Source: Phycomyces nitens | Lineage: Eukaryota > Mucoromycota > Mucoromycetes > Mucorales > Phycomycetaceae | Length of the DNA stretch: 64,000 nt | Reading direction: 5' to 3' | Assembly: GCA_022702545.1 (NCBI GenBank) | Contig: JAHRBC010000002.1 | Span: 8,556,001 to 8,620,000, forward strand | Shown: piece by piece, positions 26,301 to 64,000 of the stretch | Layout of the letters: each line of letters begins with the position of its first letter | Position numbering within the stretch: position 1 is the stretch's first letter | Notes under the pieces: model-generated | What the model was told of the DNA's origin: nothing | The model's input: only the letters and a program-made list of their open reading frames with translations | The model's database searches: none | Program-made: the position numbers and the translations under genes

Positions 26301-26646
26301 GAGTAGCTTTCAATGGAAGATACCCTTTAATCCCCTTCTTGTACGAGATCTTCAAGAGATAAGGGCATCCAGTTGTTGATCCAGGACGAATCTTTACATG
26401 ATCGCAATCTTCGAGCTTGTGAACGTTTCTGTAATGACCGCCTCTAGTGCACTTTAGGTAAACTCTAGTTGGCTTTCGATCTTTAGTTGAAAGAGCAAAG
26501 TTGTTAGCAAGTGCGTATTGCTGCATCGTAGCAATTGCTATTGTCATGTTGGCATATCCACCGGCTGGTGGAATAGGAAGATCTTGTTGTACAGGATAGT
26601 GTTTATTTCCATTGATAACGACAGTTTCTTTATTGGTAGAGTTCAT
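23398..26646 (-). CDS. FAR1-like/MULE transposase/SWIM/OTU fusion protein, 1037 aa
   Basis: Exons 26646-24439, 24375-24252 and 24179-23398; both introns are GT..AG and the frame is kept. The order is a FAR1/WRKY-GCM1-type Cys-His domain (CTRGGHYRNV..CPYLL..HNHPLD, about residues 55-125), a MULE DDE domain with VIDATYSTNN and FVTDKCAAL..LLCYWHM, a SWIM zinc finger (CQCINKYQYNIPCHH), a basic linker, and an OTU-like cysteine-protease domain starting DGWCGFRVLAHL with a later NNHW. MULE enzymes cut DNA at terminal repeats; OTU domains cleave ubiquitin-like conjugates. Inserted just before the second catalytic Asp are about eight 9-residue repeats absent from copy B. No stop or frame break was seen. 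Confidence 0.85.
25488..25705 (-). repeat. 27-bp in-frame tandem repeat in MULE A
   Basis: Units around GTTGTTGTCTCAAAAACATT recur about eight times and encode variants of GNVFETTTS. The copies degrade toward both edges. The last unit grades into the conserved TVFVTDK of the catalytic core. Copy B has only a short linker here, which accounts for the 71-residue length difference. Confidence 0.92.
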
Positions 26647-26877
26647 CTTGAAGTGATTTCTATTGAATGATTGTCAATGATGTTATGTTTAAAAGTTCTG
26701 ATTTGTAATCACAAAGTAATATTCTCGTTTGTTCTCAAGAAATTATTTGATTTAAATATTAGATGACTAATTCTTACTTGATGAGTTTGTAAAAGAAGTG
26801 AGTTTTATAAACAAGTACTGAATATCTTTTTAGGACACAACATTTTCTTTCAAGGTACTCAATGTAGTTGTCGGGTC

Positions 26878-44758: not shown

Positions 44759-44994
44759 TATACACTGCAAAAATGGTGTTAAATCAATGATTAATTGTGG
44801 GGTGTTATTATCAATAACAGTATATGAAAAATTGCAACTCAGGGAAAATCCTTTGGTTAGTATCATTGACAGATATAAGCATGTCTTATTGGTTAGATAG
44901 ATTACGGAGTACCTGAAAGTAATAATAAAACTATAAGAACTGACAATAAACTACTGCTATTATATATTCTCTTTTGATATAAACCCAAAAAAAA

Positions 44995-47900
44995 ATGTTT
45001 GCCATTCCCAATGCTAATGAAGTTGAATGCCGATGCTCGAAATGTGTTTGCAATCCTGCTGGCTACATGATCACTGCCAAAAGAACTGCCAAGCGTCATG
45101 CTCAGAGTGACAAAGACAGAGAATTGGATAGAAATATCAATCGTAAATAAAATGGCTATTATATAGTGTGGGCTGTAATATTAATAATATTTTAAATAGT
45201 CTTGCCCGTCCAACAAAGCAGTGCTGATGTGGACATGGAAGCAATTCAATTTGAAGAGGACATTGAATGTACATAGTATTTTATTTTTTATACTCAATAT
45301 ACACTTTACTTATGCTCGGTTTCAATAGATGACAGTTACTCTAATGATGTGCCGTCATCCATGGAATATCCCGATGGGGTCTTACCTCTTTCAGCCAAAG
45401 ATTTTTTTGTAATAGATGAGCTCAATGAAGAATATTCATCCGAGCATGAATCATCTGATGAAGATGCCGAGGAAGAAGAGGCCGAGCAGAGTGAAGGTCA
45501 GCAATAAACAAAAATGTTGATAGTGCCTTTGAATAAAGAAAGATATTAATATTTAATTATTATTAATACTCACAGAGAGTTCAGCCAATCTTCCTGAAGA
45601 TCCATGGCACAGATTGATAGCCATTTTCCTTGTCATGTTTATTTCTTCCTTTGTTGTTGATGAGGGTGCCGTGATATTGATCTCTTTTATTAATGCAATC
45701 CTTGAGCATTATGGGGAAAGCTTCAGACTCCCAACAAGTATTCCCGGTTTAAAGACGATGACTGGGTATAGTGCTATGACAAGTGGTGTGTCAACATTTG
45801 TTGCTTGCAGTGATTGTCACACTTTGTATAAAAGCAATAGTGAAGTACCTACTTGTTGCACTGGAAAAAAGCTTGGCTGCCAGAACAAATGTGGAAACAG
45901 TCTGTTTAAGTCTGGAATTAGTAATGGATTGACTGCAAAGCGCACATTTGTGTATAACTCGCTGAAAACGGCCTTGGCAAAGCTTTTCAAGCGACCCAAT
46001 TTCGAAACTGCCATCAACATGTGGAATCGTGGTCCAAAGGTTCCTGGCACCATGTTTGATGTATATGACGGAAAGATGTGGAAGGAGTTTGTGGATGAGG
46101 ATGGCATGCAGTTTGTTGCTAGAGAGAGATCGTTGTTGCTGGCTCTTAACATCGATTGGTTCCAGCCTTTTGATGGGGTAACTTATTCTTGCGGTGCAAT
46201 ATATCTTACCATCAACAATTTGCCAAGAGACGAGCGCAATAAGATGGAAAACGTGATTCTCGTTGGGCTCATGCCAGGTCCCAAAGAAGCAAGCACAACC
46301 GAAATCAACAACTACCTGCGCCCCCTTGTTGATGAGCTCAAGGAGCTGTATACTGGTATCAAACTTGATACGTACAGTCGTTCTGGTGCTTTGGTTCGTG
46401 CTGCTCTGCTCATGGTTGCATGCGACATACCTGCTGCAAGAAAGACCTGTGGCTTCACTTCCCACAACAGCAGAAACGCATGTCATAAGTGCAATCGTCA
46501 CTTTTTCCGTTTTGAAGGGACCTCAATTGTTAACTATTCTGGATTCAACTCTTCAGAGTGGATTGGCTGCACAAAAGAGGAGAACCACCAGCATGCCATC
46601 ATGTGGAAAAATGCGAGAACTTTGGTGGAGAGAAAGCAGCTGGAAGTTGAGAATGGAGTGCGGTGGTCCGAGCTTCATAGACTCGCATATTTTGAACCAG
46701 TCAGGGCAACAATTGTAGACCCAATGCACAACCTTTTCCTTGGAACAGCCAAGCGAATGATGGAAAAGTGGATCCTGTGCGGTCATCTTGACGACAACGA
46801 CCTTTGTGAGATGCAAGTTGAGGCAAACACCATCATATTGCCTTCGGAATATGCCACTCTCACCACCAAAATTGCAAAGGGATTTCCATTCATGAAGGCA
46901 GATGAATGGAAATCATGGTGCTTGATTTACTCGCCTGTTGTGCTGAAGGGACGGTTGGAAGATGATCTGTTTGCCAACTGGATCGAGTTTGTTGATGCCT
47001 GCCGATTATTGACGAAGCCAACAATCAGTGAAGAAGAGATTGAGCTTGCTCATGGTAGTCTCGAGAGATTCTGCAGTGGGTGTGAAGAATTGTACGAGCA
47101 TGACGTCCTGTCTCCAAACATGCACCTTCACCTCCATTTGAAAGAGACAATCCAAGATTTCGGGCCCATTTATGGATATTGGTTGTTTAGCTTTGAACGC
47201 TACAACGGGCTTGTCAAAGGCTTTAACACCAATCGTAAAGCTGGTTTTGAGAAGACATACATGAATAAGTTCGTTCAAAGTGGTTCAAAAGGCGACTTTT
47301 ACCAAGCTCATCTCGCCACCATCACCAGCCCAACTCATCTTGCTCTGTTTAACAGACTGTCTCCCACCACTGTATTTGCGCCTCAGCAAAATAGGCTGTC
47401 GATTTTTTCTCTCCCTGCCTTTTTGGAATCAGCAATGAATCCAACAAAGCAAACGTTTGGCAATGAACCCCTCCCACCATCCGCCCTGCCATTGGTCTTG
47501 AAAACGCCAACAACAATGAGGAAGTCTGAGTACGACTGTCTTCTGAAGTACTACAAGATGGAGTATGCCGATGACAATCTTTGCAGTGCAAAGAACATCA
47601 TTAGAAGCGCAAACTTTGTTAATGACAGAATCCAGAAGTTTACCTCGATAAATCTTCTTGGACAAGTCTATAAAGGCAGTGAGGGGGCAAACGGAAGAGG
47701 TTCGTACATCCAGGCAATGTATATTGAGAAAAATGGTGATTCTGGGGAGATATACGCTGGTCGTATTAAATATCTTTTCGCCCACAATTTCTTGCCAATG
47801 CCTACTCCTGACAACTTTCTTGCGCGCCTTAATCCCCAGCATGTTTTTGCTTTTGTTGAGTGGTATTAAATCCCTTACCATCAACCAAGAATCAACCAGG

Positions 47901-48058
47901 GTATCGAGCTGTATAAGCCGACTTTCCAAAAGTACAACTATGATAACATTCTGCCCGTCCATTGCATCCTTTCGCCAATTGCAATCGGCAATCAAGCTTC
48001 TGGTCGTGGGGCAGCCAAAGTTCTTGTCATTCCCTTGCCTAGAAAGCTTTATGCTTAG
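44995..48058 (+). pseudogene. Plavaka-type (CACTA superfamily) transposase, four exons, one late stop
   Basis: Exons 44995-45142, 45200-45268, 45329-45496 and 45576 onward, all GT..AG and in frame. Exon 1 has a Cys-rich start (ECRCSKCVCNP). The main exon has a second Cys cluster (CSDCHTLYK..CCTGKKLGC), then LNIDWFQPFD, CDIPAARKTCGF, IVDPMHNLFLG and LFSFERYNG, which fit the D, D and E regions of Plavaka transposases. TAA at 47867-47869 follows FVEWY. However, 62 further codons up to TAG 48056-48058 remain in frame and match the C-terminus of the second copy at 63796-63999 (VLVIPLPRKLYA against MLVIPLPKKMYA). Without the late stop the protein would be about 955 aa. It converges on the accessory gene 122 bp further on. 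Confidence 0.87.
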
Positions 48059-48180
48059 ACTTCTTTTTCATTTTTTCTATTATTATTATTATCTTTCACT
48101 ATCTTATATAAAACATACAATACTTGTGTATTCAAAACAATATTAATGAAAGTATAGGAATGAGAGATGCAAGTAATTGT
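48059..48180. other. 122-bp spacer between convergent genes
   Basis: AT-rich; it separates the transposase stop from the accessory-gene stop. The second unit has about 132 bp in the same place once its 8-kb insertion is removed. Confidence 0.7.
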
Positions 48181-50698
48181 TTATTCACGTTTTGTCCATG
48201 CGGGCATTTTGGCTACTAAGCCACGAGGAATTGCTTTTGATACAACTACGTGATGGCGAGCCTTCAGCTGGCCCGCTCTCTTTCCCAAATCACTTATTGC
48301 AAGAGTATCGAGAAAGTCAAAGAACTCATTCAACTATCCAAATACAGACTCCTAATGTGCCCGTTTGGTCAGTTTCAACTCCGCCATAGTTAAAGAAGTA
48401 CATCACTTTTTATTAACACCTAATAGTGCTCAAAGAAATATTGTTGGAACGTAATAAATGAGGAGGACAAACCTTGATAGACGAAGATAAATGTCATAAA
48501 AATAATAGTATATTTCAATAAGGTATATGACCACCACGCTTCTTTCTAACTTCAGAGACCCGATTCTTGATACTCAGGCAATATTTCATACAAGTTTCGT
48601 GTGAGATATTTGCCCACTCTTCTACTAAAGCTGCCTCTAACTGGGACAGAGTAGTGGGGAGAGGTCTTCTATCTCTGACTCTGTTGTCAAGATGACTCCA
48701 AATATTTTCAATTGGATTGAGATCTGGACTTTTTGCAGGCCATGGCAAAACTGCAACATCATTCTCTTCTTTCCACTCTATTGCCAGTTTACTCTTATGC
48801 GGGGTAGCATTATCTTCTTGCAGAATATAGTCCGTAGTGTCTATATCAGATAAACCATAAATGAATGGCAGATAGTGTTCTCTCAAGGTGGCAACATATC
48901 TTTCTTTTGTCATGTTACCATCCAAGATTACAAGAGGTCCGACACCTCCTGCCCAAATGCATCCCCATACTGAGACAGAGCCACCATAACCTTGGACTTT
49001 TGGCACCAGGCAGTCATCGTCATACTTTTCATTGGGCTCTATCCAGACATGCTGCTTTCCACCTTTCTGAAAAAGAGTGAACTTTGATTCATCACTCCAG
49101 ATGACAGATGCCCATTCATCATCCCAGTCATTTCTTTCAAGTGCCCATTTATAACGGGCAGTCTTATGCTCTTTGTCAAGTAGAGGCTTAGATACGGCAA
49201 TACACGAATGAAGATCCAAATCGTGAAGATATTTCCGAACAGTAGATTGACTAATGGAGATGTCATGCAATTCCTCAACATCACGCGTAATCTTGGCTAA
49301 TGTCATATGCCTGTTTTTTTTGGCACATAACTTCAAATAACGCAATGCTCGTGGAGTTAGCTTCTTAGGAGGTCGAGGATGCTTCTTGTCTTTGTAGGTT
49401 CCCTCTTTCTCAAATTTCAAGATTATACGGCTCACAGTTGATTGGGGAATGCCCTCTTCACGAGAAATATCCCTAGTGCTACGTCCTTCCTTGTGTCTTC
49501 CAATAATGATTCATTTTTCAAAATCTGATGCCTTGTAGTAGGTCTTGTGAGGTTTAGCTTCATTGTTCTTTGGCATGGTGATTGTATTGATTATAGAGAT
49601 TGTGGGATTAAAAGAGAAAAAAAATAAGCAAAGATGTGCTTGCATGGAAAATTCTGACCGGAGTTATAAGTGACCCAAAACGAGCCTGAGGCGCCTGTAA
49701 AAGTGGAAATATATGTTATAGCTACCTCATCACTTCGCCAGCTTGGGCGAAGCACTGTTACAGTTGTGTCTGTATCACTTTCGTCATCAGACATGACATC
49801 TCTATAAAAGAAGCCACTGTAGTCTCTCCCAAACTTTTCGATGGAGGCGACCTTGTGTTTGGCAAATGTTCTCTTCCGTCTCTTGAAGAGCTAAAAAATA
49901 TAATGATAAATATATTTATGTTTCTCTTATTTTTTATAGAGCCACCTACGTCTGTCTTGCGATTGCCTCTTCTGTTTGCCTCTTTTTTTGCTAGTTTGCC
50001 TTCCAACGAGAGCTTGCTGTTGGCCATGCAGTTGTAATAGTTATTAACTATCATACCACACAGTTCTTTTGTCGGAACAAAGGCAGACTCACTCTGGCCA
50101 CGCAGATACACTAACAAGTCATCTGCCACACCCTTGTTGACCTCATCAGACAACACAACACTGACATCCCAAGTCATCTTTGCGTCATTCTCACTTATTT
50201 TTTGGGGATCATCAGTGTTGAGATTCATGTTTCTGAGGCGATCACGAATGAGTTTCTAGTTTATATTGATTAATAATGATTCAAGCAGTGTTTACTTTTA
50301 ATATTTACTGAGATCTTTGGGTTTCTGCTATTGCCAACAACATCTTGCAGTTGGATCTCAAAATTACCACTCTGGATAGCCTGTGGACCGGCCAACTGAG
50401 GAGCTTCTTGTCTCTTCATTGCATCCATGACAAGACTATCCACGGAAGTCATCATCTTGCTTCCACTATCCTTGAGTGTGCCGACATCATTGCACATGGT
50501 TGTCATTTTTTTATCCAAGGTGGACAAGAGGTTGACTATGTTATCAACTTCCTCTCTGGAAACCCCAACAACATCTTGTCTAGGAGCAAGAGAAGGACGA
50601 ACAGGTCCTACACGGCCATTGGTGACAGTATTGATCAATGGTCTGGACATTGATCCATTTGCAGATGCATTTCTGGCGGTATTGATTCTTGGTGCCAT
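48181..50698 (-). CDS. Plavaka-unit accessory protein, copy 1, 337 aa (four exons)
   Basis: Exons 50698-50309, 50255-49950, 49890-49726 and 48333-48181; all introns are phase 0 with GT..AG ends. Exon 1 encodes a probable coiled coil (VDNIVNLLSTLDKKMTTM). Exon 2 (102 codons, the same size as in copy 2) has TWDVSV and a basic end. Exon 3 has MSDDES and LRPSWRSDE. Exon 4 has NEFFDFLDTL and MPAWTKRE. Exons 2-4 match 54827-55615 throughout at the protein level. Intron 3 contains a whole Tc1 element. The function is unknown: coiled coil plus basic region suggests an oligomeric DNA-binding partner of the neighbouring transposase. No stop interrupts the exons. Confidence 0.78.
48345..49697 (-). mobile_element. 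Tc1/mariner element in intron 3 of the accessory gene
   Basis: The ends CAGGCGCCTCAGGCTCG and CAGACTCCTAATGTGCC head an imperfect inverted repeat of about 40 bp that ends at AACTCCG on both sides. TA lies at 48343-48344 and 49698-49699. The insertion ends ten bases from the splice acceptor of exon 4 and is on the same strand as its host gene. Confidence 0.87.
48515..49576 (-). pseudogene. Tc1-type transposase, one premature stop, 353 codons
   Basis: Start ATG 49576 (MPKNNEAKPHK). TGA at 49512-49514 interrupts after 20 or so codons, within the first helix-turn-helix. A CGA-to-TGA change would explain it. The rest is open. It has helix-turn-helix segments (RSTRDISREEGIPQSTVSRI), a basic GRPR-like region (HPRPPKKLT), and a DD34E core: WSDESKFTLF, LQEDNATPHKS and SPDLNPIENIWSHL. 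An internal start could give a protein from residue 48 on, lacking part of the DNA-binding domain. Confidence 0.9.
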
Positions 50699-50737
50699 TT
50701 TCTTAATTATTCAATAAATAAATTAGTACGAGCTTCG

Positions 50738-50775
50738 CTCCCCCCCCCCCCCCCCCCGAAGGGAGGGGGGCCCTC
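50738..50775. repeat. C18 homopolymer with GC-rich inverted neighbour
   Basis: GCTTCGCTCC runs into eighteen or so C, then GAAGGGAGGGGGGCCC. CTTCGCTCCC and the following GAAGGGAGG could fold, and the G-rich strand could form a G-quadruplex. It lies about 40 bp upstream of the accessory-gene start. The exact length may be unreliable. Confidence 0.6.
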
Positions 50776-50867
50776 TCAGCCTATGTTTAAGAAAGAATAT
50801 CTTCTTACTACCGGATGTTAGACTATACTATGTTTTACTGCATAGCTTTAATAACTAATTCCAGCAG

Positions 50868-50912
50868 TTTGGTTCAGTCGTAGACTTCACAACTAATAGG
50901 TCTACTGGTATA
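50868..50912 (-). repeat. Single diverged unit of the 43-bp satellite
   Basis: GGTTCAGTCGTAGACTTCAC matches, inverted, the unit core of 37550-38160, and the flank ACTAATAGGTCTACTGGT matches the terminal unit there. Confidence 0.75.
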
Positions 50913-50996
50913 TATATTTAAGATAAAAAAGGCGATTGATAAGATAATTTTATTATTATATAGGTAGAGAAACAATAGAGCTAATAAGAAGTATGA

Positions 50997-52580
50997 TTAC
51001 ACAAATCGGGAAACTTCTTTGAATACAATGTTTTTTGTTTGACATGTTTGAGGGTGTATAGAGCCTGCAGTTGGGATAGTGGGGCTTTCACTTGTATCAA
51101 TCATCACTCTAATAGAGTTCAAGTTACGCACCCGTGATAGAGCTACATACAGCTGGCCATGAGAGAACACTGGACATGGCAGGTATACACCAATCTTGTC
51201 TAATGTTTGACCCTGTGCTTTGTTGATCGTCATACTAAATGCTAGGCGAAGAGGGAACTGGGTCCGGTTGAATGGAATTTGCCCTTCAGTGCTTGATAGG
51301 CTTAGTTTAATCCTTGGGATAAAGGCATCTTTGCCTGCAAATGTTCCGTTCAGAATCTTCCCTTTGATGACATATCGATCAAGTGATTCGCAGATTAAAC
51401 GGGTTCCATTGCATTGTCAGAAACCACCAATCGGATTCCTGAAACAATACAATCAGATTCATATCTATGTATTGCTCTCAAAGAACCAATATCATTAATG
51501 AAACATAACTATGTTTCATTCTGCAACAACACTAATCTCTTCTTAATTGTCTCAAACATAGCTAGAACTAAAAAGTATATAAATGACCTTAGAGCTTGAT
51601 CAATAGAAAGATCAAGCGAACAACATCTTTAATAAAGGAATCTTTCTATAACTCTCTGCCTGTTTCTCCTGTCCTATTCCTTGTATAGATAGGTTCCTGA
51701 CATGCATAGTCCATTTGCCGGATCCAAATTTCTTAGAAGCATTACTGGACATCCAACCTTGAGCTTCAATTTATGAAGAGGAAGACTTGAGGACTCGAAT
51801 GAATTGAGAAACTCAATGGGGTATGAAACCTGGTCTTCTTCTGATTGCCCTTCATCAATGCTGCGGTATTCAACCAATTGGCCAGGAAATGACTCCAAAA
51901 GAATATCATTTATCTTTCTGACATCTGAGTTCTTGGGAGTAAGAATTGCATGGCCAGCAAGAAACTCATTACTGGGATTAGCAGAGTGTAGGTCTGGGAA
52001 GATCTTACTTGTCAGATTGTAAAGATTGGAGCCTTTTTCTATCATCGACTCTGGGAGCTGAATGGTCTCAGCATCACCAAGTGTGGCCTCACGCCCTTCT
52101 CCAACCTGCAAAAGGTAATCTGCAAAATCTTGCAATTGGGTTGCCTGGTTTGGGTCAGTAGATTGAGCTACACGCATGTTTGTAGTCAAGCGGAGAGATT
52201 TGACATGTTGCCAGACAGGAGAACGGTTGATACATTGATCCACAATCTGACTTCTCGTTCCACCAGGAATCACAGGAAGTACTTGCCTAAAGTCTCCTCC
52301 AAAGACAATAAGCTTTCCACCGAAAGGAACTTGAGACAATTCTTGGTCTTCCAGCCGCATTATATCCCTGAACATTCTGTCTACAGCTTCAAAGACATGA
52401 CGGCTAACCATGGATGCCTCATCCCATACAATCAACTTTGCCATCTTCAGAAGTTTTCCAGCAGATGATCGGGGTGTAATTGAACATGTTGACGTGGCAT
52501 CAACTCTAAGTGGAATCTTAAAGCGTGAGTGGGCAGTTCTTCCACCATTCAGCAGCAACGCCGCACACTGGAAAAATGGG
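50997..52580 (-). pseudogene. PIF1/Helitron-type helicase, 5'-truncated and split by a solo LTR
   Basis: Coding runs 52580-51708, then a 288-bp LTR, then 51414-50997. The first part has LLNGGRTAHSRFKIPL, LIVWDEASMVSRH (Walker B-like DEAS), FGGDFRQVLPV and LTTNMRV. The second has PRIKLSLS, TINKAQGQTL and HGQLYVALSRV. These are the conserved helicase motifs of PIF1-like enzymes and of Helitron Rep-helicases, where GGRTAHSRF is common. The Walker A region and everything upstream are missing. Without the LTR and one copy of its target duplication the two parts join in frame (NGLC-NGT). Neither a Rep domain nor Helitron ends were seen, so either origin is possible. Confidence 0.87.
51415..51702 (+). 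mobile_element. Solo LTR (288 bp) in the helicase gene, TSD TGCAT
   Basis: It begins TGTCAGAAACC and ends TTCCTGACA. It is flanked by TGCAT at 51410-51414 and 51703-51707. It has the same length as the chromovirus LTR and shares its right half, including AGCTTGATC..GATCAAGCGAACAAC, but the left half is diverged, so it is a related subfamily. Confidence 0.9.
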
Positions 52581-52599
52581 TCTGAATACTCATGTGTAA

Positions 52600-54500
52600 A
52601 AGTGCGGTTACTAAGGGGTAAAATTAAGATTTATTAGATACGCTGTATGGGTTTCTGTATGTGCCAAAGCCAAGTTTTACACAATGAGTTATGACCTGGT
52701 TTCTGCATGAGTATTTACTTCATGGGCTGACCAAGTGGGGGTTGTTAGTATGAGCAGGTCATTAATTTGACCTGATGTACAGAATAAAAGTCTATTTGAA
52801 ACCAAGTTTCGTTGTTGTACACTCTTTATATAAGAGGAAAGTTGAAAGCAAAAGAACCTCTTGACATGATTAAAATCCGATTATACTCAGGTGGATTGAA
52901 GGCTTTCTTAATTTTTAACCAATATTTGAAGGCTATTACTGTGTAATCAAGCATTGAATGCTCCCCCATTATTTTATATCCCGTACTTATTAGGTTGTTT
53001 ATGGTTTATATTTGTGTTTATTGGAAAGAATAGAATGGTTCTATACACGAGTTCTAATACTATTACTGTCTATCCTTGCCGCTTCTACCGGCCTACTTGA
53101 TACTACTTGGATCGGGTGCTTCTCTACTGAACAATACCTGAAAATAAGGTCCGACGGCGATTTGGGTGGTTGCGGTAGTGTTCTTATATAATAAAGGTAG
53201 TATTAGTGACATATATTCAAGAGTGCGGGTATTGTTCAAGATGCGAGATATATTATACTTACATTGTAAGGGATGGACAAGAATGGACAAAGAGGGGCTG
53301 AGTTGTGCGGCATGGCATCTTGTATGATTAGATTGACTAGAGATGTGGTAAAATAAATTAATATGGGTGAATTGAGTGATAAAATAATTAATTTACATAC
53401 CAGAAGCAGAGTTGGCGATTAAAGTAGAGGGATGGTATATGGCGGCCAACAATAGCTTCTTATTAAGAGTATAAAAAATTATTAGTAAATAGCCAGAATA
53501 ATATTATGGAAAAGCACAAAGACCAAGAAACAGCATTAACATTATGATAACCAGTCGTAGATGATGAGGGAGGCAGATGGGGTAGACAGTGATGGTGGCG
53601 GCCTATTGTAGAATAAGAAACGTTAGAAAAGAAAATTATTATTTTTTTGATACAAAAAGATTTTTTTTACCATAGCACCAATGACGATACCATATAATAG
53701 ACCATGCCAGTAGAGGAGGTCTATAAGATCAAAAGAGATAGTCAGAATAAATATATAAAAAAGTATAAAAGCTAAAAGACAGCATTACCATTATGATGAC
53801 AGTTGTAGATGATAGAAGACGCAGATGGGGTATAGGGTGATTGATGGCGGCGGCCTATAGGAGAATAAGAAGCATTAGAGAAAAAAAAAGTTTGACACGA
53901 AAATATTTTTTTACACTGGGACTGATGACGTTATCATATAATAGGCTATGAAAGTGGAAGAGGTCTATAAAATAGAAAGAGAGAATCAGAATAGTTTGCA
54001 AGATGGCACCGGCACATTTAACTGACCATGATTAGTTTGGAGGAGCAATGCAGGCAGGATGTATTGGATGAGTGCGTGTTTATAAAGAAGCCGCCAATTT
54101 TTTAGTCTAAAGAGGTGTAAAAAAGAAAGAGAAAATAGGCGCGGATATAAGGAAACAAGAGAAAGGAAAAAAGGCTAAAAAGAAAAAAAAATACAAGGAT
54201 ATATAATTTGAAACAGAGACAGAATAGGTGTAATGGATAGAGTCCAAAAGCAATAATGGTGCCGTTCATTAATGTGTACAAGAAGTCTTTTTGGATTTAT
54301 AAATAAAGCTGTCTTTACTAATATATAATCTGTATTTTATATTATTAAATCCTTTTGACCAACTTGTTCACTCTTCCCACTCAAATCCGATTTTTCTATC
54401 TATCTGTCTCTTGTGCGTTTTAAGTAAAAGATATGTTTAACCTTAAAGTAGTAAACGAGTATTAAATATTGTGTATTTTTGATATAATTTATAATAGAAA
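52600..54500. other. Gene-free AT-rich interval with tandem duplications
   Basis: No coding sequence was recognised. 53400-53990 holds a diverged tandem repeat of about 248 bp, described separately. A second open frame at 54443-54781 is only antisense to the accessory gene. Confidence 0.5.
53400..53990. repeat. Diverged tandem repeat, unit about 248 bp
   Basis: CAGCATTA(A/C)CATTATGAT at 53531 and 53780, and CATATAATAG(A/G)C(C/T)ATG at about 53691 and 53936, each recur about 247-249 bp apart. Also repeated are GCAGATGGGGTA and GGCGGCCTAT. Two full units and a partial third. Confidence 0.75.
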
Positions 54501-55615
54501 ATGTCAAACCAAAGAAGGAATATTGCTCCACGACCTGCTGACGACAATGTCAATATGCAGACGGTCATCACGAATCTCCAAGAGGATCTTGCCTCAATTA
54601 GAGGCGACATGACCACGATGAACAGAAGAATGGGGACTCTTATTGAGTCCAACCTCACCTTCATTGCTGCCACAAGTATTGTGGCTCCAGTACCTGCTCT
54701 TGCCTCTGTTGCTGTCCCAACTGCCGAGGCCACAAATGAATCGATGTCTGATGCAAAGAAACGTGTGTTTGTAGGTGTCACCAGATATAATATCCTATCA
54801 ACTAAATTCTTATTTTGATCAAACAGAAAGATATTCGTGAATATTTGTGGCAGCCAAAGTTGAGGTCAAGGGCGTTGGTTGACATCCAGGCAAATAACAA
54901 CAAGCCAAGGTGGGATGTCCATACTCACTTTGACAAGAGTCCCAACAAGGAGCTGGTAGAACGTCTACTGGCTTACCTTGGGCCAAATTTTGTTGGCTCG
55001 CCCTTGAGAAGAAGTGACATTCGAGAGAAAGTCTACAGAAACTTCTGTAGCCGTCGTCAGGAGCAGAGAAAGTCTTCTGAGAAGAAGGCAGTCTCCAACG
55101 CTCGTTCGAGAAGGGCAAACCGTGAAAAAGATGTAGGTTGTATACTATTCAAACTAGAGACAAATATTAATGAATACATGTTGGATATTTGTTAGCATTT
55201 TGAACGTCGCATGACTGCCTTTCTCAAACATAAGGAGGCCATTGAGCAGGCAATGGGGCAAGTTTGTTCTGGTCTGCTTCAGAAAGAAGCAATATCTGAA
55301 GGAGAATCAGACAACGATACTTCAAAGACTCTTGGCAGGCGTCGGGTCTCCGTTTATCACCCAAGCTGGAGAAGTGATGAGGTAAATTATTCTGTAAACA
55401 ATATATAATAATATATTTATTAAGATATTATTTTTGAAATATTAACAAATGCTATTTAGTTCAACTGGTTTATTGAAATCGTTGACTCATTCGTTTCTCT
55501 TGACTTGGGGATGAATGCTCATCAGATGCTGTCAAGAGATCTCAAAGGAGTCAGAGACTTAGCAGTCCCTGGTGACTTGGCCGCCCGTCTGCCTCCTTGG
55601 GTCATAAGAAATTAA
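54501..55615 (+). CDS. Plavaka-unit accessory protein, copy 2, 305 aa (four exons)
   Basis: Exons 54501-54770, 54827-55132, 55196-55381 and 55460-55615; three phase-0 introns of 56-78 nt give 306 codons with no stop. Exon 1 has a probable coiled coil (VITNLQEDLASIRGDMTTM). Exon 2 (102 codons) has RWDVHT and a basic end with ARSRRANREKD. Exon 3 has EGESDND and HPSWRSDE. Exon 4 has NWFIEIVDS and LPPWVIRN. It is homologous, exon by exon, to the gene at 48181-50698. It converges on the Plavaka transposase at 63796, from which it is separated by an inserted 8-kb element. The function is unknown; a role in transposition is inferred only from the repeated pairing. Confidence 0.82.
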
Positions 55616-55699
55616 ATAAAAAATAAATAAAAAACAATTGTTTTATTTTACTCTTGCTTACGTATTTAATCCCAAAGACCACTACGGCGAGAGGAGTGG

Positions 55700-56010
55700 G
55701 AACAGCTACCGAAACGGTAACATAACTGCCGTTTTTTCTGATTTTAGACTGCTTTTTCTCCGCAGATTGTGGTTGAAAGGTAATGTCATCGATCCCGATT
55801 CATAAAAGTCGCATGGAATCTCTTTTCCTCTGGCAATGAGGTAGTTGTAGTACCATAGAAAGGGCTCGTAAAATTTTAGGTAACGTTGTTTATTGAAATG
55901 AGCATTTTATTTGGTGTTGAAGATGTTGCGCATTCTTGAGAAAAATAATTTTTGTCCTGTGTGAACGAAACGGTAACATAACTACCGTTTTTTGAAACCG
56001 AATTTTTGTT
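55700..56010. repeat. Left subterminal repeats of the CACTA-ended element
   Basis: CGAAACGGTAACATAACTGCCGTTTTTT at about 55720, and nearly the same sequence with TACCG at about 55967, alternate AACGGTA and TACCGTTTT in opposite orientation. They resemble transposase-binding subterminal repeats. Confidence 0.7.
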
Positions 56011-56591
56011 TTTGACATTATTAGCTGCTTTATTTTATTTGGTGTCCGTATAATAATATAAAGAAGTATAGAGAGGGCATTATAAAGAATGAATTATAGA
56101 ATAGAGAGGCTACTCATGGTGACGCGTCAATTATTCTTGAATATGTAGTACAGTGCAATAAAATAGAATTATTTCCGTCTGGTAGGTATTGATTGAGTCG
56201 TTGATGTTGGACGTCATCTACATTAACAACTGCAAATGTCGGTTGTAGTATATAGCCCGTTGTACAAAGTACGGGCTGCTACTTTATTTCTGCTACATAC
56301 AAGTCATCGTTTGCAATGCCGTGCTCCTTCATGAGTTTTTTCTGAAGTAACAAAGTATTGACTAAAGTCTTAATCTCTATATTAAAAGTAGAGATGAACA
56401 ATACTAATGAGCTGGTTTTCATTAGTTATATTGTGATTGCTAGGTAAGCATGTACAAATAGCAAGTGATTCTTACTTTGTGTTTTTACTAATACTATATT
56501 TATTTTCTACAAGGACAAGGGGGTGTTGGGTGGTGATTGTTGGTGCTAATCTTGCCGATTGGGTATTTAAATGAAGAATGCAAAGTTGAAT

Positions 56592-56945
56592 CCGTCCAAT
56601 GATGGACATTAACAATGACAGTGGAAACATCAACCTCCATAGCATTCAAATCAGTATGCCGCAGGTAATAACTAAACAGAACTTCATTTATACTATTTTT
56701 ATGCCGTGTATAACATTAATATTTAAATAGACAAATTGACTGAAAAGCTTACACAGTTGGTCACCACTTCTCCCATTGAAAATATCCCAAAAACGAGCTT
56801 TAGTATATGTATGTGGTTACAAAAGTTTAATATTATGATACATACTCATTGCTATATTGATATAGCCGCGAATTTCAAAGTATCTAATGAGCTTATCCAG
56901 TTTACTTATAATTCTCTCTATGAATTGAGTGGAACAGCTTTGTAA
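56592..56945 (+). CDS. Weak hypothetical gene inside the CACTA-ended element
   Basis: A possible first exon (MMDINNDSGNI) from 56592 ends at CAG/GTAATA at about 56665, and an open frame continues to 56945. A junction at TTACACAG (about 56754) is one option. The product would be under 100 aa, with no motif. The only support is the splice-like signals. Confidence 0.2.
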
Positions 56946-58224
56946 TGGGCCTCGGCGATTTATTATATGAAAAAAGGTGTGTCAGGTAATTTTGAATAGT
57001 TTAAAAGAGACCGAGATATAGTCTTGCCATAAACTTGTTGGGAAAGTAAGTTGCGCAGATTCTTAAAGTGTATCTTATGGAAAAGGTAATAATCGATTGT
57101 AACGATAATAGAATACTATACTATGATTTAACTTGTGATTTTTATTTTATCTAGCAATGCAAAAGCTATATTAAAATACAAGGGCCATTCCTTTGTTCAC
57201 AATCTAAAGGATATGGTTATTATCCATGCTTGGCAAGTATCAGACAGCAAGCTATTTTATTAATATTTTCACCAAAAACCTTTGCAGTCAAATGAAGATT
57301 GATCAACCCAAAGGGACATTCAAAAGTCAATAGTTTGTTAAAGTGTTTGGTTTGCATATATTTTTCATTTATTATAAATGGATATTTGGTATAAAAAGGG
57401 ATCTATTGGACAAATACCTTGATTAGCTTGGTAAGTTAGCAATTGATACAGGTGGTGGTCTCAAAGAAAAGAGTAAACTTCATTTACATAATATGCTTTA
57501 TCATTAAGATCAAAAAATACGGCACAAGAGAACCCATAGAGAATAACTTTTGTTTTTGTTAATATTTTTCTCAAACCATCCTTTGACTATGAATCGCGGC
57601 ATCAACTAAAAGCATGGTCTTATATTATCAAACACTATTTAATTGACAAGAACACTATCCTATGGCCATAAAATAATATAATGGTCCATCACAGAATCAA
57701 TATAAATATTATAGGATGCTGTGCACCAAAAGACTTGGAAAAAGGCTTTACAATCAATAACCAGGCTCATAAATAATTAATAGAGAATAATAAAGTAAGT
57801 TGACTCTTTAATATATGCTTTGAATATGTATTGTAGTTAATATAATATCTTTAATCACAATATAGCAGCAAAGGGCAAGTGGTTCTTTTCTTTTTTGAAG
57901 ATGAGGTGTTGTAACTTGGTGATGGCGTCGAATTAGCAATCATGACAGATGTGCAACGGGTGATTGCTTTGTTGATCATCTATTGCTAATCTAATGCCAA
58001 TATAATATTTCTACTCTTTAATATAGCTCTATACCGCCAAAAACGAGTATTGTGTAAGTGCTAAGCAATAAAACAAGGGTTTAAGATTGTTCTTTTAGGC
58101 AACTCTTATTGGCCCCGTTGCATTTTTAGCATATGCTTAGTGTGCTTTCTTTTTTCTTTTTCTTTTTGCTTCTCTTGTCTTGTCTTTGCAATGACTCTTT
58201 GAATTAAAACCAAATGAGCCTCCT
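56946..58224. other. Gene-free AT-rich interior of the CACTA-ended element
   Basis: No frame of useful length and no family-level signal. A short inverted repeat AGCCCGTTGTACAAAGTACGGGCT-like hairpin occurs just upstream, at about 56255. Confidence 0.4.
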
Positions 58225-58488
58225 TCATGTAAGATCGGCACGGTTATAAACACCTGATTGACATCCCGATTGAACCATCTTTAGCTCGATTACCTTTGAT
58301 TTAGGAATGAAATGCAGCTCGCTCTTTTTTCCCCCAGAAACAAAAGAGCAAAAACTTTTTACGGCCATATTACAATACGGTTTGTCCTTTTTACACTTGG
58401 CAATCTCTGTAAGATATACACTTTTCTTTTCTAATGAGCTGATTACTCTGTTTGCTACAATGAGATTCGAATCTGTTTTGAATCTCAT
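58225..58488 (-). CDS. Hypothetical 87-aa open frame
   Basis: MRFKTDSNLIVANRVISSL.. is a Lys-rich frame with four Cys and no recognised motif. Its 5' end lies only about 50 bp from the DIRS insertion point, so it may be the remains of an exon split by that insertion. It could equally be chance. Confidence 0.25.
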   Translation of the reverse strand: MRFKTDSNLIVANRVISSLEKKSVYLTEIAKCKKDKPYCNMAVKSFCSFVSGGKKSELHFIPKSKVIELKMVQSGCQSGVYNRADLT

Positions 58489-58600
58489 GATTTGAATATC
58501 CCAAAGTTGATTTTCTATGGTAAGACGATTGTCTAATTGTCTATCTACCCCTACGGAGTATCAGACAATCCAGATTGTCCATCGGAGACTCCGTCCCTCC

Positions 58601-58688
58601 AATGAGGTTTTGGCTTCCTAAGCCACGCTTTTTTATTCTTTTTTTTAAAAACAAATTGTATTTCTATTCTAAGAACTCTATCTCTTCC
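58601..58688 (+). repeat. DIRS left inverted terminal repeat core (88 bp)
   Basis: GAGGTTTTGGCTTCC to CTCTATCTCTTCC is the exact-length inverse of 62913-63000 with almost no mismatch. The outer 66 bp (58535-58600) are unique to the left end and are mirrored only in the internal complementary region. Confidence 0.93.
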
Positions 58689-58744
58689 AAGCCACGCATC
58701 GAGGCTATTAAAGTTTACTTTCAGTAACACAACAAGTGATCAAC

Positions 58745-59551
58745 ATGAACAATGCACCCAACATTTCCGCAGAAGAAATCCATGAATTGCTTGCCTTCAA
58801 GAAGCAATGGGAACAAGAGCAGCAACAGCGACTTGTCCAATCCTGTGACCTCCCAGACGAGATCAGAGAAGACCTTGAGCTGCCCAAGACAGCTATCAAG
58901 AAGTTCTGTGGAACGTTCCTCAGGGGTGTCCCTACTTACGAGGGAAGCCGTTTCACTCAGGCTCCATGCCTTAACAAGGCCATTGTCCCTGAGCTCCAGA
59001 AAGCAACGGTATCAACCTATTCTGCGGTCCAGTCCAAGTTCAAGGATGCAGAAAAGCTACGAGCAATGGCAGCGTCCTCTGCCCTTATTTTCGAGGAAAT
59101 GGTCGCAGCCATGGCAGATGACATGGAGGCCAATGACCCGCATAGTGCCCAATTCCAGGCAATTGGCGAGAGAGCAAGGCGAGCAGCAGTCTTTGGATAT
59201 GCTGCAGCCATCCAGATTGAAGAAGACGTCCGAGGTTGGACCGATCGGGCATGTGGTGTCCCTGAGCACCTCCAAGTCCACGACGAAGAAGAGGGTCGAT
59301 CATTGCTCTACAACCCTGAGTTCCTCCGTACTCTCCACCAGACCAAGTTTGAGCAAGCAGTCCTCAGCCGGGCCATGGCCCGTAACCAAGGTGGTAACAT
59401 GGGGTTTACCCCAAGAGGACGAGGAAATGGACGAGCCAGGGGAAGAGGTCGAGGAGGATCTCCCCGACAGTTCCAGTCCCGCCCACAGGAGAAATCCAGC
59501 CAGTCGGGAGCCGAGACAAACCCCCGCCCAGCTCTCAGTGGAGGGCAGTAA
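58745..59551 (+). CDS. gag: DIRS gag-like protein, 268 aa
   Basis: Start ATG 58745 (MNNAPNISAEEIHELL), just inside the left repeat. The first 200 residues are mostly helical. The C-terminus is an Arg/Gly-rich tail (RGRGNGRARGRGRGGS), a typical RNA-binding feature replacing zinc knuckles. No stop was found. The RT frame starts within or next to its end, in a different frame (+1 relation uncertain), and has no obvious ATG before the RT. Confidence 0.85.
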   Translation: MNNAPNISAEEIHELLAFKKQWEQEQQQRLVQSCDLPDEIREDLELPKTAIKKFCGTFLRGVPTYEGSRFTQAPCLNKAIVPELQKATVSTYSAVQSKFKDAEKLRAMAASSALIFEEMVAAMADDMEANDPHSAQFQAIGERARRAAVFGYAAAIQIEEDVRGWTDRACGVPEHLQVHDEEEGRSLLYNPEFLRTLHQTKFEQAVLSRAMARNQGGNMGFTPRGRGNGRARGRGRGGSPRQFQSRPQEKSSQSGAETNPRPALSGGQ

Positions 59552-59574
59552 ATGGGCTATCAGCCCATTCCGAG

Positions 59575-61452
59575 GTGTCCGACAGTCCCTTGCAGTTACC
59601 GAGCGAGGGATGTCTCCCAGGTGGACGCCTCCAACATTTTTCCAAAGCCTGGGACGATCTCACCACCCACAATTGGCCCAGATCAGTGGTGCAACATGGG
59701 TACCAGATCCAGTTCAAGTCGCAGCCAAGACCTTGGTACCTACCTCCACGCCCGATCAACTCCGAAGCGCTCCAGGACATGGACGAAGCAGTGGACAAGT
59801 TTCTGTCTACCGGAGTGGTGGAGGAATCGCCGGACCAGGACGATCGTTTCCTGTCCCCAATGTTTGTTTTGCAGGAGAAGACGAAGAAGCGGCCCATCTT
59901 GGATTGCAAAAGGATCAATTCCTTTGTGCAGGTCCAGCATTTCAAGATGGAAGGTGTCCCAGCATTGAGGGATATCTTAACCAAGGGCGATTATATGACC
60001 AAGATCGACCTGAAAGACGCTTACTTGGTGGTCCCGATCCAAGAATCCAGCCGTTGTTTCCTGAGTTTTCGCCATCGCCAGAAGATCTTCCGATTCAAAG
60101 CTTTGGCATTTGGTCTTTGTGCCGCGCCTTTTGCATTCTCAAAATTAATGAGATATGCAATGGAACCATTGAGAGCACAAGGTATCCAGCTAGTATACTA
60201 TCTGGACGACATTTGCTTGGTTGGGAAGACCCCAGAGGAAACAGTGCGAGCCACCCAATTGACAATAGCCCATCTGAGGTCATTGGGTTTTATCATCAAC
60301 GACAAGAAGAGTGTGGTGACCCCTGCTCAGACTCAAGAGTTTCTTGGTTTCCAGTTCGACTCGAAGACAATGAAATTGTCTGTCCCCAAGGCCAAGATGG
60401 TGAACCTAAGGGACAAGATCAAACAAGTTTTGTCTTGACCGCAGACTTGCCGCCAGTTAGCGTCATTGATAGGCAAGTTTACAGCAATGATCCCAGCAAT
60501 TGGAGAGGCCTTAATCCGAATCCGGTTTCTCCAACAAGACTTGGCGAGGAGTCTCCACCAGACATCCAAGTGGGAGAGCAGGTGCTCCATATCCTTGGAA
60601 GCCAAGAAGGAGCTGGAGTGGTGGTTGAAGAATGCGCAAACCATCAACGGAATGCCGGTGAGAACACCAACACCGAGCAAGCAAGCTCTCAACATCCAGG
60701 TGGATGCGTCGGATTCCGGTTGGGGCATCGCCTCAGAGATAGTGACGACGTCGGGTTTCTGGACGACCGAAGAGAAGGCAACCTCTATAAACGCCAGAGA
60801 ACTGAAGACCGTTCTGTTTGCCCTCCAGTTACATGCCAACAAGACCCACCACAAAGCTTTCCACATCCAAAGCGACAACATCACCGCGATCAAGTATGCG
60901 ATGAGGTGGGGCGGTACAGCGTCTCCACTGCTCCAGGAATTGGCTTTGCTGATATGGAATCTCCATGTGAAGAATGGGATAGAGGTGACGATGTCCCATA
61001 TCACAGGTATAGCGAATGTCACGGCAGATCGTCTGAGCCGAGTGTGGAAACCGGTGCACGAGTGGTCCCTTCCCCGCAGACTGTTCCAGGATATATCCAG
61101 GAGATGGGGGCGAATGATGGTGGACGCATTCGCGTCTCGCGAGAACACAAAGATCAGCCGATTCTGGAGCTATCTTCCAGATCCTGCAGCCGAAGCTCAG
61201 GATGCGTTTCGCCAGAGATGGCCGAGGAAGGGTTTGTACGCCCATCCACCTTGGAGATTGATCCCTCAAGTCCTCCGGAAGATGGTGCAGGACAAGGCAG
61301 TGATAACACTGGTGACTCCTTGGTGGCAGACCCAGTATTGGTGGCCAATGGTAATGGCGCACGCAATGGACGGACCCATACCGCTCAGCTCAACCAGGTT
61401 GAAGTTCCCTCTGGCCACTTGGAGATTATCGCCCAATATCTTCAGGAAGTAG
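59575..61452 (+). pseudogene. DIRS RT-RNase H-methyltransferase-like polyprotein, one premature stop
   Basis: One frame interrupted only by TGA at 60436-60438 (after KQVLS). The RT (about residues 60-280) has DLKDAYLVVPI, FGLCAAPFAF and catalytic YLDD. RNase H has VDASDSGWGI, INARELKT, QSDNITAI and TADRLSR. The end holds MVDAFASRENTKI, AHPPWRLIPQVL and VTPWW, the methyltransferase-like segment usual in DIRS elements. The stop could come from CGA. The start is not defined; the frame is open upstream into gag. Confidence 0.9.
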
Positions 61453-61460
61453 GGAACCTT

Positions 61461-62737
61461 CCCAGTGACCAGGCAAGTTTCTTAGCTCAGGCCAACAGAG
61501 TGCAGACCAACAAGTCGTATGATCTGGCATGGCGATGATGGGTAATTTGGTGTGAGGCCAACCAGTTGGATTGGAGAGAATAAGATTTGGCAGCCATTTG
61601 CCGTTACTTGGCTAGCAGGAATGCCAATGGAGTCTCCCACCAGCAGATGAATGTGGATCAATCCAGTATCGCAAGTGTTTTCCGGGTGATCCACCAAGAC
61701 AAACCGCCAATTGCCCAGCAGTTTATGGTCCAGGCCTTCTTCAGGGCGCTGAAGAATATGAGACCCATAGTGCCAAGAGCAAGAACCCCAGCCTGGGATC
61801 CGCAACAAGTCCTGGCTAAGGTGTTGGAGTGGGGTCTGTCAGACGATTTGTCTTTGCTTCGCCTCCAGCGTAAGACCGCACTGTTACTTTGTCTGGCAAC
61901 AATATGGCGAACAAGCTCGGACATAGGCCGGTTGCTATTTAAGGATGTTTCCCTCCGAGGAAATAGAGGGAATCAAAGGGGTTACGAGACTGTACACTTG
62001 GTCATGCGTAAACCTAAGGAGGCAGCGTTCAAGGAGATGACCTTGGCCGCCTTACCAGATCACCCAGAGTTGTGCCCAGTAGCAACTATGGCCCTATTTG
62101 TCGGAAAGACTGCTCAGGCCCGATTGATTCTCCCGGAAGATCACACTTTCTTCCTTGGGTTTATTGCAGGTAATCAACCGAAGTCCATTAGACCATCCAC
62201 TATGGGGACATGTGTTAGGATTGGTTCCTAACAGCCTTCGCGCCACACTCCCGAAATGGATACTAGCTAGAAGACCAAATACATCATAGCTATCTTTAGA
62301 CTTTCCTTTCTTGTACACCCACCCGCCACAGTTACCAATCATTATATTTAGACATATCTTTACCCTAGCTAGAAAACATATAAATACCAGTAGAGCTTGA
62401 TCATAGAAAGATCAAGCGAACAACGTCTTTTATTAAATAACTTATCCTTGAACCTCCTGTTTCTGTCTCTTGCCTTGTCTGCTTGGATCAGTTCCTGACA
62501 ACATGGATCAAGAAGACACTGGGTGAATGTGGAGTAGACACCTCGCTACATAAAGGCCATTCAACAAGATCAGCAGCCGCAACAGCAGCAAGGAACCAAG
62601 GAGTGTCAGTCGCACGGATCCAGCGACATGCCAACTGGAGTGCTCAAAGCAGAGTCTTTGAGAGGTATTACTGGCGTCCCGAAGTTGAGGATTCAGATGG
62701 TGTAGCAGCGACAATTCTCTTGCCTTCGGACAATTAA
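61461..62737 (+). pseudogene. DIRS tyrosine recombinase, two stops and a solo LTR insertion
   Basis: Core-binding part: TNKSYDLAWR then TGA (61536-61538), WVIWCEANQLDWRE then TAA (61581-61583), then an open frame to the LTR. The catalytic part has RTSSDIGRL (first Arg) before the LTR and, after it, HSTRSAAATAA (His, Arg), HANWS and FERYYWRP (Tyr nucleophile). The LTR at 62213-62500 with its 5-bp duplication shifts the frame. Without them the sequence joins in frame at MGT-WIKK. Stop 62735-62737 touches the internal complementary region. The 5' part lies in the same frame as a long open frame from 58752. Confidence 0.88.
62213..62500 (+). mobile_element. Solo LTR (288 bp) of the chromovirus, TSD ACATG
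   Basis: Starts TGTTAGGATTGG, ends TTCCTGACA, and is flanked by ACATG at 62208-62212 and 62501-62505. It is almost the same as 9440-9727, so the insertion is recent and has lost its internal region by LTR-LTR recombination. Confidence 0.96.
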
Positions 62738-62847
62738 CCTCATTGGAGGGATGGAGTCTCCGATGGACAATCTGGATTGTCTGATACTCCGTAGGGGTAG
62801 ATAGACAATTTAGGTTGTTCGAGGGGACGAAGTCCCGAGAATGAGGT
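62736..62847 (+). repeat. DIRS internal complementary region
   Basis: The first part (to about 62810) is the complement of the left tip 58535-58606. The second (62807-62847) is the complement of the right tip 62993-63032. The two meet at GACAATTTAGG, which is the circle junction read in reverse. Confidence 0.92.
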
Positions 62848-62912
62848 GAGTCCCACCCACCACACCACACACTCCCTCATAGATATATGGCAGTCGAATT
62901 GTTCGGCGTGCC

Positions 62913-63032
62913 GGAAGAGATAGAGTTCTTAGAATAGAAATACAATTTGTTTTTAAAAAAAAGAATAAAAAAGCGTGGCTTAGGAAGCCAAAACCTCATT
63001 CTCGGGACTTCGTCCCCTCGAACAACCTAAAT
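62913..63032 (-). repeat. DIRS right inverted terminal repeat and right tip
   Basis: 62913-63000 is the inverse copy of 58601-58688. 63001-63032 (CTCGGGACTTCGTCCCCTCG..) is the right-specific tip and itself contains a GGGACTTCGTCCC hairpin. Confidence 0.92.
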
Positions 63033-63540
63033 AATTATATTATTCTTCAACTAATTTTTCAGTACATATTCTATTGACCTCCTATTACATATAGTGTTTA
63101 TTTCTGGAGATCCCTTTCAGTATAATCATTCAAAACAAGAGGCATGGTATAGTAATTGACAAGCATAATATATACTTGTAAGCAATACAAAATAATGTAC
63201 TAGGTTTATATGATCGCTTCTTTTTCTAACCACAATGAATTTTTAGCAATTGATGAATGCTAAGGATCATCTAATGTATATCAACGTAGTATTATTATGC
63301 GTGTATAGCTTATAACAAAGGTTTGTACTATATATGTTTTATAATATTAAATAGCATTAGTTTTAAGTATTTTTCTATAATAATTGTGCGCAAAATACGG
63401 TATGAATTAAATCAAGACATTCTATAATAAAGAATAAACCATTCTTTCAAAAGAATGGTCGTAAAAGAATAGCAGAACCCATTATCAAATAGAGTACTAT
63501 AAAAGAGAGGTTATAGTGTATAACGGAAGCATTTTTGGTT
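63033..63540. other. Gene-free AT-rich part of the CACTA-ended element
   Basis: No frame or repeat recognised. It lies between the DIRS right tip and the right subterminal repeats. Confidence 0.4.
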
Positions 63541-63718
63541 GGATAAAAAAAACGGTAGTTATGTTACCAAAACGGTAGTTATCTGCCGATTTTTGCCACT
63601 ATAAAAACAGTAGCTACTACCAAACTCGCCTTACACAGGGTCATATCTACCGTTTTTCCCCACCAAAAAAACGGTAGCAATGTTACCAAAACGGTAGATA
63701 ACTGCCGATTTCTTAGCC
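63540..63718. repeat. Right subterminal repeats of the CACTA-ended element
   Basis: Five or six AACGGTAG units, several as AAAACGGTAGTTATGTTACC and AAAACGGTAGATAACTGCCG, plus inverse TACCGTTTTT. They mirror those at 55700-56010. Confidence 0.8.
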
Positions 63719-63795
63719 GTAGTGGACATGTTTAAAGGCAATGAATGTTTTGTTTTGTTCTTTTTAAAAGAAACAAGTATTTATTTATTAATGCT

Positions 63796-63999
63796 TTAAG
63801 CATACATCTTTTTTGGTAAAGGAATGACCAGCATTTTCACATTAACACCAGACACCAGCTCAGCAGTCGCGACTTCCAAAAGAATACGATGTACTGGCAA
63901 TATACAATGATAATCATCTGGAGAGAAACTTGGCGAGCAGACCTCAACTCCTTTGTATTCACGTGTTCTACTTGGCATGTTGATGAGCCATCTCACGAA
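63796..63999 (-). CDS. Plavaka-type transposase, copy 2, C-terminus only
   Basis: The frame runs off the window edge and ends at 63796-63798. Its 67 residues (FVRWLINMPS.. ILPVHRILLE..VLVIPLPKKMYA-like end) match the last part of the transposase at 44995-48058, including the segment beyond that copy's TAA. It converges on the accessory gene at 54501-55615; without the 8-kb insertion only about 132 bp would separate the two stops. Confidence 0.82.
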   Translation of the reverse strand, partial: FVRWLINMPSRTREYKGVEVCSPSFSPDDYHCILPVHRILLEVATAELVSGVNVKMLVIPLPKKMYA

Positions 64000-64000
64000 A

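Follow-up and report, generated by a model that had tools for sequence, protein, structure and literature searches.

The 64,000-bp stretch of the Phycomyces nitens genome analysed here (the window; C4:8556001-8620000, in a searched genome of 49 Mb in 11 contigs) holds two elements, units A and B, each of which pairs a transposase gene with a four-exon gene on the opposite strand, the accessory gene (Table 1). In unit A (44763-50728), the transposase gene (plus strand) and the accessory gene (minus strand) meet tail to tail, with their stop codons 122 bp apart. The genes of unit B are also arranged tail to tail, about 131 bp apart once an 8045-bp insertion is removed. A preliminary description had reported this arrangement, which we confirm for both units, and had regarded the units as two inverted copies of one. 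The gene pairs are indeed homologous, but the identity of the two transposases is 55% and 60% in two long stretches and 35-46% in two C-terminal ones, and on these values we place units A and B in two families rather than treat them as two copies of one element.

Unit A is a damaged copy. Its transposase frame carries an in-frame TAA near the end (47867-47869), after which the frame resumes; a Tc1/mariner element, with a transposase frame at 48515-49510 on the minus strand, sits in intron 3 of the accessory gene; and about 1.5 kb of the element, including the right end, is missing. A PIF1-type helicase frame (50997-52630, with PF05970 in 51677-52630) adjoins the lost right end and is perhaps a Helitron remnant. 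Unit B is broken too, by the 8045-bp insertion in its spacer and by another element, unit C, inside its transposase gene. The insertion harbors a DIRS-like retroelement, recognized from Pfam Dam and Phage_integrase matches in its frames. Similarity between its ends, CACTACGGC and GCCGTAGTG, is weak past 9 bp; a further occurrence of CACTACGGC lies at L003 976. Unit C, nested in the unit B transposase just beyond the window (L002 3525-9684), is a complete third unit of 6160 bp with 32-bp perfect inverted repeats and a TAA duplication on both sides. It encodes an accessory gene on the plus strand (L002 5019-6250) and a transposase on the minus strand (L002 about 6346-9433), the small 5' exons of the latter being placed by eye only.

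Table 1. Features of units A and B, in window coordinates.
Feature	Position	Strand	Basis or remark
Unit A, left terminal inverted repeat CACTGCAAAAA, transposase side	44763..44773	+	Boundary common to family A copies with unrelated flanks
Unit A, transposase gene (PF02992)	44995..48058	+	Main frame 45557-47866, in-frame TAA 47867-47869, final TAG 48056-48058; start and small upstream exons taken from the preliminary description, seen by eye only
Unit A, accessory gene exon 4	48181..48333	-	Exon model
Unit A, Tc1/mariner insertion in accessory intron 3	48345..49697		PF01498 and PF13358; homology break 48344/49698; limits placed where the alignment with an intact copy is interrupted
Unit A, accessory gene exon 3, ends PSWRSDE	49726..49890	-	Exon model
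Unit A, accessory gene exon 2, 102 codons	49950..50255	-	Exon model
Unit A, accessory gene exon 1	50309..50698	-	Exon model
Unit A, right break	50728..50728		End of the blastn alignment between the window and copy L008 (6122 bp)
Unit B, accessory gene exon 1	54501..54770	+	Exon model
Unit B, accessory gene exon 2, 102 codons	54827..55132	+	Exon model
Unit B, accessory gene exon 3, ends PSWRSDE	55196..55381	+	Exon model
Unit B, accessory gene exon 4 with stop	55460..55618	+	Exon model
Unit B, 8045-bp insertion in spacer, CACTACGGC...GCCGTAGTG	55680..63724		gac on either side
Unit B, transposase C-terminus	63797..64000	-	Gene runs on beyond the window, where it is split by unit C

The limits of the mobile unit can be read from the other genomic copies of family A, that of unit A. 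These share a sharp left boundary at CACTGCAAAAA, with unrelated flanks, and a right boundary at TTTTTCCAGTG, separated from the start of the accessory gene by about 1.5 kb without a long frame; copy L008, for example, measures 6122 bp. Both ends are readable in 11 copies (L012 shows its right end only, and L013, L015, L017, and L020 their left end only). Identical 3-bp words flank seven of the 11 (L005, L006, L007, L008, L018, L021, and L023), 4-bp words flank two (L009 and L022), and two are without a flanking duplication (L010 and L011). Target duplications of 3 bp also characterize plant CACTA elements. The element termini read CACTG...CAGTG, and one pair of terminal repeats encloses both genes. 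In these copies the two genes therefore belong to one mobile unit and move together. The preliminary description had considered that termini might fall between the two genes; they clearly lie outside both. In the terminal regions of two elements, 8- and 10-mers did not exceed those of shuffled sequences, and subterminal repeat arrays were not found by this test, which does not reach diverged or longer motifs.

The unit A transposase matches PF02992 (Transposase_21) with an E-value of 1.6e-18 and 67.1 bits, against a cut-off of 28.6. No PF02992 match was obtained for the unit C transposase frame, which is 557 residues long and starts past the first motif. Both units preserve the motif order D, C(2)C, H(3)H, E (ACDIPAARK, CHKCN, HLHLH, and FERYN), with LNIDWFQPFD present in unit A only, the unit C frame starting downstream of that point. 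This DDE arrangement, in which C(2)C and H(3-4)H separate the second D from E, was found by pattern, and the catalytic residues are assigned by analogy. From the PF02992 match, the CACTG...CAGTG termini, and the 3-bp duplications we file the elements, as far as such features allow, under CACTA/EnSpm.

The preliminary description had instead called them Plavaka elements with a partner gene. This label draws on a genuine kinship: Plavaka and EnSpm transposases, including those of fungal EnSpm elements with TET/JBP genes, are related members of the CMCT group and share the C(2)C and H(3-4)H motifs seen here (Kojima, 2025; PMC12730594). However, searched at E up to 5, neither the unit A nor the unit C transposase matches PF18759 (Plavaka), and the sole place of this model in the whole genome is not among these elements. 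The termini do not fit either, as Plavaka termini are given as TGT..ACA or CATCA..TGATG, whereas EnSpm elements are described with CAC..GTG termini and 3-bp duplications, as found here (PMC12730594). The label is thus not supported and seems scarcely credible. The extra gene described for fungal EnSpm elements is TET/JBP (PMC12730594), which was not seen in the elements studied here.

We then asked how constant the gene pair is. Family A was taken as 59 transposase places, with 58 of 1180 first-look candidates scored. Among the rows used in a first pass, 41 of the 59 places had an opposed downstream partner within 6 kb. Reading the other 18 added a partner in 14, the last third of one in L024, and a 22-residue remnant in L016, and found no accessory gene at L019 and L072. 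The accessory gene faces the transposase at 57 of 59 places in total, two of them (L024 and L016) with fragments only. Seen from the accessory gene, a tail-to-tail transposase is present at 54 of 58 family A places (40 in the first pass and 14 of the other 18) and is lacking at four (L055, L056, L059, and L069); at L053, only the last 79 transposase residues lie beside the accessory gene. For family B, counted over the best 52 of 122 scored transposase places, 49 have the partner and 49 of 53 accessory places have the transposase; within 3.5 kb no neighbor in another arrangement occurs among these places. The places without a scored partner are C4:60439 (L104, none found), C4:7599522, and unit B of the window itself, whose two genes the insertion has driven apart. 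Family B relatives, in which a transposase fragment is 74-76% identical, have an opposite-strand partner in five of five sampled cases (L099-L103), which amount to three families at the DNA level because L099 and L101 are 97% identical and L100 and L102 are 99% identical. Family C, counted from scored matches only, has the partner at 33 of its best 35 transposase places and at 49 of all 78; 49 of its 71 accessory genes are paired, and one has a neighbor in another arrangement.

These counts support the proposal in the preliminary description that the accessory gene is a regular partner of the transposase in the same mobile element. Its counter-proposal, that accessory homologues stand mostly alone, does not describe family A (4/58 alone) or family B (4/53), but in family C 22 of 71 accessory genes are without a scored transposase. 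The transposase searches returned 59, 78, and 122 places, many with open frames of 829-844 codons and near-identical within a family; given these numbers, open frames, and near identity, the families look recently active.

The accessory genes of units A, B, and C have three introns, all in phase 0, an exon 2 of exactly 306 bp, and an exon 3 closed by PSWRSDE, so the common four-exon structure noted earlier for units A and B extends to unit C. Their proteins are diverged, with identities to unit A of 31% for unit B and 27% for unit C. A Mucor saturninus database protein of 353 amino acids is 99% identical over 100% of the unit C accessory model and has the same length, in agreement with the exon model, although this record is itself a prediction. 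Taken by itself, this match would place the host probably in or near Mucor. The accessory proteins (305-353 amino acids) are predicted to comprise a long N-terminal helix (of low confidence), a compact helical exon-2 domain, a basic helix, an acidic stretch that includes MSDxESD in units A and C, the WRSDE motif, and a C-terminal helix. Where exon 2 passes into exon 3, the protein is basic, with a net charge of +7 to +12 over 66 residues, a value taken without a control set. The predicted fold of one accessory relative, of low overall confidence, shows a long N-terminal helix with a predicted local distance difference test score (pLDDT) mostly below 50, five helices in 116-245, and a last helix that takes in the WRSDE motif and the C-terminal residues following it. 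Exon 2 modeled alone is compact and all-helical (pLDDT 86.7).

No Pfam family could be assigned to three accessory proteins, searched at E up to 5, or to 13 database relatives, searched at E up to 1, the matches being weak ones only. The preliminary description had suggested DNA binding, which the predicted helices and the basic stretch might suit, but no match stood out in the fold comparison of the accessory models. Myb/SANT domains in particular gave no Pfam match to the accessory proteins and no clear match in the fold comparison. Database relatives come from Mucor and Phycomyces only (20, then three more, with none added by a later search), in a search that reaches only proteins sharing exact short words; in the databases searched, entries of the family are mostly named hypothetical or uncharacterised.

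Among 16 family A copies, eight have an intact accessory gene that is free of frameshifts and stop codons and retains all six canonical splice dinucleotides (L005, L006, L008, L010, L012, L020, L021, and L023). The main transposase frame is open in 13 of the 16, including six of the eight with an intact accessory gene. Between L008 and L012, nonsynonymous (dN) and synonymous (dS) divergence are 0.025 and 0.120 in the accessory gene and 0.027 and 0.148 in the transposase; in comparisons with L008, dN/dS reaches about 0.4 for the accessory gene and about 0.6 for the transposase. These substitution patterns indicate purifying selection on the accessory gene. The gene pair is thus kept both in its arrangement and by selection, and its splice structure is kept in units A, B, and C.

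The two proteins also diverge together. Across seven families, accessory and transposase identities correlate with r 0.91, a value recomputed from rounded identities with family B4 left out, and four of 5040 permutations are as high (the true order counted). Including the near-identical families B2 and B4 gives r 0.96 (0 of 5000 permutations), and leaving out family A' as well as B4 gives r 0.88 (15 of 720). Each family contributes some 70-105 residues of the transposase and at most 215 of the accessory protein, several of these from tblastn stretches rather than complete gene models. The accessory protein diverges faster than the transposase C-terminus, for example 63% versus 82% identity between A and A'.

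Copies also seem to have exchanged sequence. L018 and L008 differ by a dS of 0.33 in the transposase and 0.095 in the accessory gene, and L007 and L008 are 87-93% identical in the transposase core and 95-99% identical in most other parts. Family A copies thus resemble mosaics in which either of two transposase types is set in a shared backbone, a pattern that we read as recombination.

In these two-gene cut-and-paste CACTA/EnSpm elements, one gene encodes the Transposase_21 DDE transposase, and we propose that the convergent second gene may supply an element-encoded subunit of the transposition complex. The accessory protein could bind DNA near the ends, or the transposase, and would bring the two element ends together, as TNPA does in plant En/Spm. 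On balance, we consider it probable that the accessory protein is such a subunit, a functional counterpart of TNPA without detectable kinship to it. Maize En/Spm needs both of its proteins, TNPA and TNPD, and the former acts on the DNA of the element (PMC1636069). Plant CACTA elements share with those described here CACT termini, a Transposase_21 transposase, and a second element-encoded protein (PMC1636069; PMC8195511), but their two proteins arise from alternatively spliced transcripts of one unit, whereas here there are two separate convergent genes. The weak Pfam matches of the three accessory proteins (E up to 5) and the 13 relatives (E up to 1) do not include Transposase_24 (PF03004), the model that stands for tnpA in PMC8195511; kinship is judged here by Pfam models rather than by direct comparison with TNPA sequences. 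The accessory protein has no match to other known families either. The missing subterminal arrays and Pfam kinship argue against a simple copy of the plant scheme, and we therefore claim a probable functional likeness to TNPA and not membership.

The same observations can be read in other ways. The accessory gene may encode an anti-silencing or regulatory factor that acts on element promoters or host chromatin, outside the cutting complex; plant TNPA itself has both roles, promoter reactivation and repression (PMC1636069). The frame-poor stretch of about 1.5 kb between the accessory start and the right terminus could be regulatory, and the acidic stretch and the WRSDE motif would fit protein-protein contact. 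Most of the evidence fits this reading and a role in the complex equally, but co-divergence with the transposase fits direct contact slightly better, and we regard a purely regulatory factor as rather unlikely. In Harbinger elements, a Myb-like protein serves nuclear import of the transposase. The accessory protein might similarly be an adaptor, carrying the transposase into the nucleus and offering it the element ends, and the all-helical exon-2 model would suit such a part. Harbinger/Nuwa elements do combine a transposase with a separate, non-catalytic partner protein, and cases in which this partner binds DNA have been described (PMC12730594; PMC2836001). However, they belong to another transposase superfamily and their partner carries Myb/SANT, for which Pfam gave no match here and the fold search no clear one; we regard an adaptor of that kind as improbable.

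Transposons also capture host genes, and eight of the 16 accessory copies are broken, as might be expected of a passenger that hitch-hikes without use in transposition. Yet the gene is present in seven diverged families of one genome, its splice structure is conserved in units A-C, its dN/dS is near 0.2 between L008 and L012, and it co-diverges with the transposase; we give a captured passenger very little credence. A subunit of the transposition complex remains our preferred reading.

CACTA elements outside plants offer partial parallels. CNIRT6 of Cryptococcus neoformans is an active fungal CACTA element with CACTG-starting termini, 24-bp repeats, and 3-bp duplications, but it is described with one 6.9-kb gene, and the available parts of that report mention no convergent partner gene (PMC12810828). 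SmTRC1 of Schistosoma mansoni encodes, besides its Transposase_21 protein, another protein for which a TNPA-like role has been predicted, but differs in its 2-bp duplications, CCC termini, and alternative splicing (PMC1636069). According to the portions of their paper at hand, DeMarco et al. (2006; PMC1636069) reported no relatives of the second SmTRC1 protein in animal or fungal elements. In the open-licence PMC literature, judged by titles and the beginnings of abstracts, we found no description of the accessory protein or of a convergent two-gene fungal CACTA element; supplements, subscription papers, and Repbase reports lie outside this scope.

The window contains further mobile elements. 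Two copies of a Mutator-like element (MULE) transposase (PF10551) lie at 23398-26673 and 34220-37359, each with a similar 266-residue frame just downstream on the same strand. By eye, this frame resembles an ovarian tumour (OTU)-like cysteine protease; a Pfam search of it at E up to 0.01 gave nothing. Could it be another constant partner gene, in this case of a MULE transposase? Retroelement copies in opposite orientation, with reading frames nearly identical by eye, occupy 595-4360 and 16631-20396.

CACTA elements outside plants are thinly studied, and the text of DeMarco et al. (2006; PMC1636069) available to us leaves open whether they need a TNPA-like partner. The elements described here provide a sharply defined candidate, with many near-identical copies, some with both genes intact, a complete element with perfect ends, and relatives in two genera, Mucor and Phycomyces. 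With this candidate, a bench experiment that needs only two genes and a single reporter could address the partner question, and annotators gain a handle on a protein family that has mostly gone without a descriptive name. The accessory family could fill the place of the TNPA-like second protein in Mucorales. Mucoralean fungi may even have a CACTA transpososome of their own, in which an ancient family unrelated to TNPA, working without repeat arrays, is the obligatory second subunit encoded on the opposite strand, an idea that we hold tentatively and rate at somewhat below an even chance. If true, the need of CACTA elements for two proteins would have arisen more than once, or would persist with a partner changed beyond recognition.
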